In this document: piece by piece, positions 1-30,960 of the stretch
How the letters are laid out: every line of letters starts with the position of its first letter
Position numbering within the stretch: the first letter of the stretch is position 1
DNA from: Geovibrio ferrireducens
Lineage (GTDB): Bacteria; Chrysiogenota; Deferribacteres; Deferribacterales; Geovibrionaceae
NCBI RefSeq assembly: GCF_026226615.1
Contig: NZ_JAJAPB010000018.1
Location: forward strand, 1 to 34,948
DNA: 34,948 nt
Reading direction: 5' to 3'
The notes under the pieces: model-generated
Told to the model about the DNA's origin: nothing
Databases searched by the model: none
What the model saw: only the letters and a program-made list of their open reading frames with translations
Translations under genes and position numbers: made by a program

Positions 1-10
1 TGTTTATCAC

Positions 11-160
11 GGCGCGAGCGTGTACAGAAAAGGGACAGGACGTGCCCTTTTCTGCAGCAAGACAGATGCCCGAGGAACGCAAGCGCAACCAGAGCAGCAA
101 GCGGTTTTACCGCGCAGGCTGCGAGTGAGTAGAAACTGCATGGACGCAGGTTTCTGCGAA
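11..160 (+). repeat. Structured GGA-loop repeat, copy 1
   Basis: Intergenic multi-hairpin element ending about 20 bases before pncA. Spacer GCGAGCG (14-20) is followed by a perfect 10-bp stem (CAGAAAAGGG 25-34 with 45-54) capped by loop ACAGGACGTG. A 5-bp hairpin with loop TTT follows (101-113). A third hairpin at 131-155 has a 9-bp stem with one bulged G and loop ATGGAC. Copies at 23.9, 24.1 and 30.9 kb share loops and spacers but have different stem sequences that still pair. The 5' side may continue left of the window. It lies in the likely pncA leader. Confidence 0.8.
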
Positions 161-179
161 CTATGGCAAAAGGTGAAAT

Positions 180-23493: not shown

Positions 23494-23841
23494 GTGCCAA
23501 GAGCGAAAGGCGGGGTCAAAGCCCGCAAACGTCACAAAAAATGGCTTGAGGTCTCCAAAGGCTTTCAAGGCGCAGCGAACAATGTCTACAAAAAAAGCCG
23601 CGAGCAGGGCGAACGTGCTCTTGCTGAGGCTTACAAAGGCAGAAAACGCAGAAAACGCGACTTCAGAACTCTTTGGATCATAAGGATCGGAGCCGCCGTA
23701 AGACAATACGGCCTCAGCTACAGCACCTTCATCGGCAAGCTGAAAGAAAAAAACATCACCCTCGACAGGAAATCGCTTTCTGAAATGGCTATCAAAAGCC
23801 CCGAACAGTTTGAGCAGCTTGTTAAACAGGTAAACGCTTAG
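23494..23841 (+). CDS. rplT: 50S ribosomal protein L20
   Basis: Assembly protein of the large subunit, 115 residues, starting at GTG 23494 behind AAGGAGG. Conserved blocks: [54 protein letters not shown] and the C-terminal [12 protein letters not shown]. The last 28 bases of the gene, including the stop, occur again at 23950-23977, and the sequence between is structured repeat copy 4. The coding region itself is intact. In many bacteria pheS-pheT would follow directly; here they lie 3.5 kb away. Confidence 0.97.
23814..23841 (+). repeat. 28-bp direct repeat, left copy (3' end of rplT)
   Basis: Starts GCAGCTTGTTAAACAGG and ends at the rplT TAG. It is identical to 23950-23977, and the two copies flank structured repeat copy 4. 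Bases 23812-23831 also pair imperfectly with 23849-23867. Confidence 0.95.
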
Positions 23842-23949
23842 CGAGCAGACCTGTTTGAAAGCTGCTCAAAAGTAGCGAAGGCGGGTTGAACCCAACTGAG
23901 CGTGTCTGCAAAAAGACAGAATGTACTTTTTGTAGCGGTAAATTAAGAG
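23842..23949 (+). repeat. Structured GGA-loop repeat, copy 4 (degenerate)
   Basis: Hairpin GAGCAG/CTGCTC (23843-23867), then TAGCGAAGG, a weak GGG/CCC hairpin (23883-23893), spacer TGAGCG, and a 7-bp hairpin CAAAAAG/CTTTTTG (23909-23932) with loop ACAGAATGTA, a variant of ACAGGACGTG in which GGA has become GAA. It lies between the two 28-bp direct repeats and holds no gene. Confidence 0.75.
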
Positions 23950-23977
23950 GCAGCTTGTTAAACAGGTAAACGCTTAG
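23950..23977 (+). repeat. 28-bp direct repeat, right copy
   Basis: Exact copy of the last 28 bases of rplT, 136 bases downstream of the original and outside any gene. Confidence 0.95.
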
Positions 23978-24007
23978 TATTAAGGTTTTATCTGTAGAAG
24001 GATACGA

Positions 24008-24042
24008 AAAAGGGAAATCCTGATTAGGGTTTCCCTTTTTTT
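24008..24042 (+). terminator. rplT-unit terminator, first copy
   Basis: AAGGGAAATCC (24010-24020) pairs with GGGTTTCCCTT (24027-24037), one T.G wobble, then a T-run. Bases 24001-24021 are repeated exactly at 24164-24184. Confidence 0.85.
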
Positions 24043-24043
24043 G

Positions 24044-24163
24044 TATAAGCTGCTCAAACCAGCCGCAGGATGCGTCTGCCGCCGTGCGCAGCGAAGGTTT
24101 GCTATGCAAACCGCGAGCGTGTACAAAAATCCGACAGGACGTGCGGATTTTTGCGGCAAATCA
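24044..24163 (+). repeat. Structured GGA-loop repeat, copy 2
   Basis: Three hairpins. The first, 24060-24078, has stem CAGcCGC/GCGtCTG and loop AGGAT. The second, 24096-24112, is a perfect 7-bp stem GGTTTGC/GCAAACC with loop TAT. After spacer GCGAGCG (24113-24119) comes a perfect 10-bp stem CAAAAATCCG/CGGATTTTTG (24124-24153) with loop ACAGGACGTG, identical to copy 1 on an unrelated stem. It begins with AAGCTGCTCAAA, also present in copy 4, and is flanked by duplicated terminators. Confidence 0.85.
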
Positions 24164-24170
24164 GATACGA

Positions 24171-24204
24171 AAAAGGGAAATCCTAATCAGGATTTCCCTT
24201 TTTT
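24171..24204 (+). terminator. rplT-unit terminator, second copy
   Basis: AAAAGGGAAATCCT (24171-24184) and AGGATTTCCCTTTT (24189-24202), a perfect 14-bp stem with loop AATC. It begins with the same 21 bases as the first copy (GATACGAAAAAGGGAAATCC...), 163 bases downstream. Confidence 0.9.
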
Positions 24205-30865: not shown

Positions 30866-30960
30866 AACAAGTCCATGGATGGACTTGCGCCGTGCGTAGC
30901 AAAGCCGCTTTTTAAGCGGCGCGAGCGGTTTCAGCCGAACCACAGGACGTTGGTTCGGCG
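30866..30960 (+). repeat. Structured GGA-loop repeat, copy 3
   Basis: Three hairpins: CAAGTCC-ATGGAT-GGACTTG (30868-30887), GCCGCTT-TTT-AAGCGGC (30904-30920), then spacer GCGAGCG (30921-30927) and GCCGAACC/GGTTCGGC (30934-30959) with loop ACAGGACGTT. All stems are perfect and differ from the other copies. It ends 21 bases before the ttuB start and so forms the leader of the ttuB-ttuA-trmI operon. Confidence 0.85.

Follow-up and report, generated by a model that had tools for sequence, protein, structure and literature searches.

Intergenic gaps of a 34,948-nucleotide stretch of the Geovibrio ferrireducens genome (contig NZ_JAJAPB010000018.1, hereafter the window) carry copies of a multi-hairpin repeat whose stems change from copy to copy and still pair, and whose loops stay the same, which raises the question of what this element is and what holds its loops constant. 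The window is an entire contig, one of 46 in a genome of 2.97 Mb (G000), which was compared with those of two congeneric species (G001 and G002). The initial annotation had described four plus-strand copies and attributed them to selection on an RNA fold. As judged from sequence comparison, they belong to a real, high-copy family that is structured, constrained in its loops, placed in sense orientation and spread by insertion. We consider it probable that its members are short non-coding structured RNA elements embedded in mRNAs, with two hairpins each whose A(N)GGAX loops would be CsrA sites.

Copy number, anatomy and fold of the repeat

The motif ACAGGACGTK alone was insignificant in the window (three matches, 2.4 expected) and also matched coding DNA, and therefore the conserved core was used as the search pattern instead. 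With up to 2 mismatches, 146 places in the own genome matched CGCCGTGCGMAGCGAAG, compared with 0 for the reversed pattern. At 1 mismatch, a multi-genome scan found 141 copies in G000, 112 in G001 and 307 in G002, a few matches in one other genus and nearly none in the other genomes scanned. The repeat is thus real and, at about 141-146 copies in its own genome, larger than had been noted. Matches to the 19-nt core outside Deferribacterales mostly occurred once per genome; they were assumed to reflect chance or coding sequence and were not individually inspected.

The anatomy of the unit was derived from 106 distinct copies of the own genome and 220 across the three species. A type A unit is about 95 nt long and consists, in this order, of hairpin H1, CGCCGTGCGNAGCGAAG, hairpin H2, CGCGAGCGTGT, hairpin H3 and a linker such as TTATTAAATCA. 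The H1 stem has about 7 bp, H2 has 5-6 bp with a loop of 3-5 nt, and H3 has 8-12 bp. H1 mostly reads CC[ANGGAX]GG, and H3 either AC[AGGAX]GT or CC[ANGGAX]GG; in 84/91 cases the two loop-proximal pairs of H3 are followed by a single bulged base on the 3' side, which can be any base. A second and longer element, type B, has H1 and H3 in common with type A and a different core, and complete type B insertions are present in G002. Tandem and fused forms also exist, with a spacing of 94-163 bp. Among the fused double elements (L118 352-544, L007, L104, L111, L115 and L139; spacing 92-96 bp), a linker resembling GACAAGACACTG replaces H1 of the second unit.

To assess the fold, we used an alignment of 50 sequences made with MAFFT, which was not fitted to the structure, although the H3 pairs were chosen on it. 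Paired positions could pair in 90.6% of cells, compared with 60.7% after shuffling and 33-48% after sliding. Changes on both sides were found in 21/24 pairs (363 such cells versus 117 in shuffled alignments), and the covariation score was 0.725 as opposed to 0.194 after shuffling and at most 0.149 after sliding. In a census of loops defined from structure alone, positions A1, G3, G4 and A5 of the 6-nt loops were nearly invariant and positions 2 and 6 variable, while the 5-nt loops read AGGAX.

The best control against common descent came from 37 pairs of elements that share a site in different species. Here, the A/GGA letters of the loop were the same in 179 comparisons and different in 1, whereas the N and X positions were the same in 42 and different in 29, and the bulged base the same in 10 and different in 8. 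Pairs changed on both sides and yet kept numbered 24 in H1, 64 in H2 and 16 in H3, versus 5, 16 and 5 that a change on one side had broken; in one compensatory example, CGGTTCC/GGAACCG at one site faces CAATTCC/GGAATTG at its counterpart. Since H2 was frequently exchanged as a whole between species, recombination between copies is suggested in addition to point compensation. Stretches that had not been selected for the element gave the same picture: motif ANGGAN/AGGAN was carried by 15/94 perfect hairpins with loops of 5-6 nt in the own genome (mirrored motif 1, permuted 0) and by 21/110 in G002 (mirror 2, permuted 0). Fixed loops together with covarying stems strongly support selection on an RNA fold, as had been proposed.

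The copies lie mostly outside genes. A plain stop-to-stop analysis placed 39 of them within open reading frames (ORFs), which we judged spurious; a codon-usage-weighted gene call, on which all position counts rest and under which 38 own loci were too short for classification, left 1/106 own copies inside a called gene. In gaps between co-directional genes, sense and antisense copies were found at 32:6 in G000, 16:2 in G002 and 17:0 in G001 (65:8 together), and divergent gaps rarely held copies (3, 0 and 0 in the three species). The median distance from the upstream sense stop codon to the copy was 10-30 nt, and no T-run follows H3.

A covariance model of the element, a check put forward with the initial annotation, was searched against 24 other Deferribacterota genomes and found divergent relatives in 11 of them and none in 13. 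One genome (G003) had 49, those of other genera of the same family up to 10, and a different family of the order a handful. Most of the divergent loci read have a different core and retain an H1 or H3 with an ANGGA loop; several also keep the 3' bulge. Because the model includes the loops, the search is biased towards finding them, and its weakest matches may be due to chance.

The loop motif and known CsrA-binding RNAs

RsmE/CsrA recognises a hairpin loop of the form A(N)GGAX, with an optional N and no restriction on the identity of N or X; affinity is high for the hexaloop ANGGAX, and stem-loops SL3 and SL4 of RsmZ have 5-nt loops without N (PMC4005645). Selection in vitro (SELEX) gave the CsrA consensus RUACARGGAUGU with AC-GU pairing, and the repeats of CsrB read CAGGA(U/A/C)G (PMC7652899). 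The loops of the repeat fit this recognition element, as A(N)GGAX on a stem closed by C-G and in both published sizes (PMC4005645). Most copies bear such a loop on both H1 and H3, and so offer the two sites that a dimeric protein would occupy. The own genome encodes a single CsrA (88.5 bits), directly beside a gene that we named fliW-like by sequence and position. The match of the motif, including its degenerate positions, strongly suggests that this CsrA binds the H1 and H3 loops.

The elements would be read out as part of mRNAs, and a CsrA dimer bound to H1 and H3 may span the H2 core between them. The many copies would then jointly act as a CsrA sponge embedded in mRNAs, and at some sites, such as copy 4 of the window, which lies ahead of a ribosome-binding site, the element may locally control mRNA stability or translation. 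Several points weigh against this interpretation. The H3 stems, with 8-11 bp, are longer than the 4 or fewer bp of most SELEX hairpins (PMC7652899), and the 5-nt loop usual in H3 belongs to the low-micromolar class in RsmZ (PMC4005645). In addition, a mobility protein requiring the same loops could equally hold them constant, and conversion between copies, as seen in the H2 swaps, could propagate functional loops even if individual sites were not under selection.

Comparison with described systems places the element between two groups. Like CsrB/CsrC and RsmX/Y/Z, it has multiple hairpins with A(N)GGAX or CAGGA(U/A/C)G loops (PMC4005645, PMC7652899), and like RsmZ it has them in both 5-nt form, with N missing, and 6-nt form (PMC4005645). 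Unlike these RNAs, which are encoded by one or a few stand-alone small RNA (sRNA) genes, it occurs as more than 100 two-hairpin copies in mRNA ends and intergenic gaps and spreads by insertion; placement behind stop codons speaks against an sRNA transcribed independently from its own promoter to its own terminator. TwoAYGGAY RNA (RF01731) and Bacillaceae-1 (RF01690) likewise have two conserved hairpins with AYGGAY loops and a proposed role in CsrA binding (PMC4333381), but they are known from Clostridia and Bacilli and not as a dispersed mobile repeat. Copy 4 and the copies in genome G007 recall the glgC leader, where a GGA hairpin lies directly upstream of the Shine-Dalgarno sequence (PMC7652899), although glgC is a single evolved leader and the element is dispersed.

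Rfam searches returned no relevant family for the window at the gathering threshold or for copy-rich stretches at E-values up to 5; the CsrB, CsrC and Rsm models had no match in either, and cmscan gave none for RF01731 or RF01690 in the copy-rich stretches. Full-text searches of non-subscription papers on CsrA with dispersed repeats or on Deferribacteres likewise yielded no account of the element. The TAACTGA repeats of Beggiatoaceae were considered and rejected as a different repeat without GGA motifs.

Being short, dispersed, intergenic and hairpin-forming, the element also resembles RU/ERIC, REP/BIME and MITE-like repeats (for RU, PMC2759123). It differs from them in conserving loops and not stems, in its 17-65 nt target duplications and in its occurrence in a genus without Y1 transposase. 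We rate it as a candidate that would resemble a CsrA-sequestering RNA in its working, outside the CsrB, RsmZ and TwoAYGGAY families, and that would join a CsrA-binding RNA with a small mobile repeat.

Insertion sites and competing explanations

A direct repeat scoring at least 16 connected the two flanks in 42% of the own copies, compared with 6% when flanks were mixed. The duplicated targets measure between 17 and about 65 nt, and GA is their commonest start, after an element end in TCA. Empty and filled sites were read from syntenic stretches of 15-20 kb of the own genome and G002. One gene end is plain in the own genome, while in G002 it holds two elements along with TCAGGAACTGCCTGAAGGTATAGAAGTAGT in triplicate, and the element supplies a new stop codon. 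The pheS end is empty in the own genome; in G002 it contains two elements, together with three copies of a 35-nt target, the last of which has lost 3 nt. These sites, each empty in the own genome and occupied in G002, identify target-site duplications of 30 nt and 35 nt. A further gene end carries type A with a 42-nt duplication in the own genome and type B with a 41-nt duplication in G002, and therefore two insertions took place. The rplT and pheT sites are filled in all species. Duplicative insertion thus spreads the element, so that the initial contrast with a simple mobile repeat holds as regards the selected RNA fold and fails in that the repeat also moves, as the flanking duplications, tandem arrays and empty and filled sites document.

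At four loci (L003, L121, L078 and L100), the 5' arm of H1 consists of target sequence that recurs in the second target copy, with the complementary 3' arm lying in the element; microhomology at the junction or copying from the target is one possible explanation. Where a duplicated gene end can be compared with the copy in use (L072 1596 of G001; compare L029 922 of the own genome), only synonymous differences were seen: the duplicated end DVNLAAFNAGYQF* has five synonymous changes and none of another kind, even though this second copy is located downstream of the stop codon. As candidate insertion enzymes, reverse transcriptase was found in neither G000 nor G002 and once in G001, Y1 transposase in none of the three species, and Cas1 not in G000 and once each in G001 and G002. 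Retroposons, REP/RAYT (Y1) elements and Cas1-type elements (casposon- or CRISPR-like) were rejected as classes, the respective enzyme not being found in the own genome.

Such mobility is what a selfish miniature element would display, one whose hairpins serve its own insertion machinery through recognition of the ANGGA loops and bring the host no benefit; the GA-biased duplications, tandem arrays, interspecies empty and filled sites and target-derived H1 arms would all fit. We regard this as unlikely, since the loop letters obey the CsrA rule down to the free positions and in 5- and 6-nt versions (PMC4005645), both A/GGA and pairing persist in elements that several species share at one site, divergent copies from other genera retain the loops on either side of a changed core, and the three enzymes sought were not found in the own genome. 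The sense orientation close behind stop codons and the stable folds could instead point to a structural element of the 3' untranslated region, a REP/BIME-like stabiliser of 3' ends or transcription attenuator, whose loops are constrained for another protein. This seems improbable given that H3 lacks a following T-run, that a separate terminator-like hairpin adjoins copy 3 and that the constraint on the loops is specific to A(N)GGAX.

Covarying stems would equally suit single-stranded DNA hairpins, and a repeat acting at the DNA level, REP-like or similar to integron attC sites, would then owe its covariation to its DNA form. The strong sense bias with respect to transcription and the lack of a Y1 transposase in all three species make this very improbable, and what REP elements conserve is the sequence of the stem and the foot tetranucleotide, not a GGA loop.

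Returning to the CsrA sites, a fuller account would have a mobile RNA element insert sense modules behind stop codons, with the long GA-biased duplications and the occasional H1 arm from target DNA described above, and thereby place a distributed CsrA sponge in hundreds of mRNAs, the core varying across Deferribacterales while the ANGGA loops stay. We advance it tentatively, as having somewhat less than an even chance. The CsrA sponges described so far are mainly a small number of dedicated sRNAs from gammaproteobacteria. If the account is true, it would show, outside that group and in another phylum, how a repeat that transposes can rewire a global post-transcriptional regulator or buffer it. 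An unexplained insertion mechanism is also indicated by the length and variability of the target duplications in this genome, in which searches for reverse transcriptase, Y1 transposase and Cas1 came back negative.

Copies in the window and adjoining repeats

Three of the four copies in the window are largely as first described, with small corrections. What was given as copy 1 at 11-160 is a type A fragment (1-58) cut by the contig start and then a partial type B element. Copy 4, called degenerate, is complete (30868-30959, loop ACAGGACGTT), and the degenerate one is instead copy 2 (23842-23949), with an H3 loop ACAGAATGT without GGA and an H1 without ANGGA loop. What had been taken for a 10-nt loop is a 5-nt loop, AGGAY, closed by C-G and sitting on two base pairs, after which comes a 1-nt 3' bulge. 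These loops we identify, beyond the initial annotation and from their letters, as the putative CsrA/RsmE recognition motif.

Table. Coordinates of the repeat copies and duplicated targets in the window.
Feature	Position	Strand	Details
Copy 1, type A	1..58	+	truncated by contig start: H2 3' half, CGCGAGCG (13-20), H3 25-54
Copy 1 H3 loop	35-44	+	AC[AGGAC]GT, reading ACAGGACGTG
Partial type B element	61..175	+	ends in hairpin 131-155 and GCGAACTAT
Type B end hairpin	131-155	+	AGAAAC-TGC[ATGGAC]GCA-g-GTTTCT
Left copy of 28-nt duplication	23814..23841	+	rplT final codons and stop
Copy 2, degenerate	23842..23949	+	H3 loop AGAAT, H1 without ANGGA loop
Right copy of 28-nt duplication	23950..23977	+	
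Left copy of duplicated terminator-like hairpin	24001..24041	+	41 nt
Copy 3, complete	24060..24163	+	
Copy 3 H1	24060..24078	+	CAGCCGC[AGGAT]GCGTCTG
Copy 3 conserved core 1	24080..24096	+	CGCCGTGCGCAGCGAAG
Copy 3 H2	24097..24111	+	GTTTGCTATGCAAAC
Copy 3 conserved core 2	24112..24123	+	CGCGAGCGTGTA
Copy 3 H3	24124..24153	+	CAAAAATCCG-AC[AGGAC]GT-g-CGGATTTTTG
Right copy of duplicated terminator-like hairpin	24164..24204	+	
Copy 4 H1	30868..30887	+	CAAGTCC[ATGGAT]GGACTTG
Copy 4 core 1	30888..30904	+	CGCCGTGCGTAGCAAAG
Copy 4 H2	30905..30919	+	CCGCTTTTTAAGCGG; orthologous G001 site has CCTTGCTTTGCAAGG
Copy 4 H3	30934..30959	+	GCCGAACC-AC[AGGAC]GT-t-GGTTCGGC

H3 of copy 4 ends 12 nt upstream of GGAGG, a Shine-Dalgarno-like sequence of the small gene that follows, and the site of this copy is filled in three species. 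In copy 2 both ANGGA loops are gone and the H3 stem is still paired; the same degenerate copy is present in G002, with a G-U to G-C change. At the copy 3 site, G002 has four tandem units of terminator plus element, each 163 bp. Tandem arrays of 3-5 units, each consisting of element and gene end, were seen in G002 (L203, L204 and L171) and G001 (L049 and L051), every array with its own period within 100-163 bp. Finally, another dispersed repeat, GAGATTGCTTCACCCTTTCAGGGTTCGCAATGACG and its variants, often adjoins the elements (flanks of L001, L024, L098, L033 and others) and can itself serve as the duplicated target.
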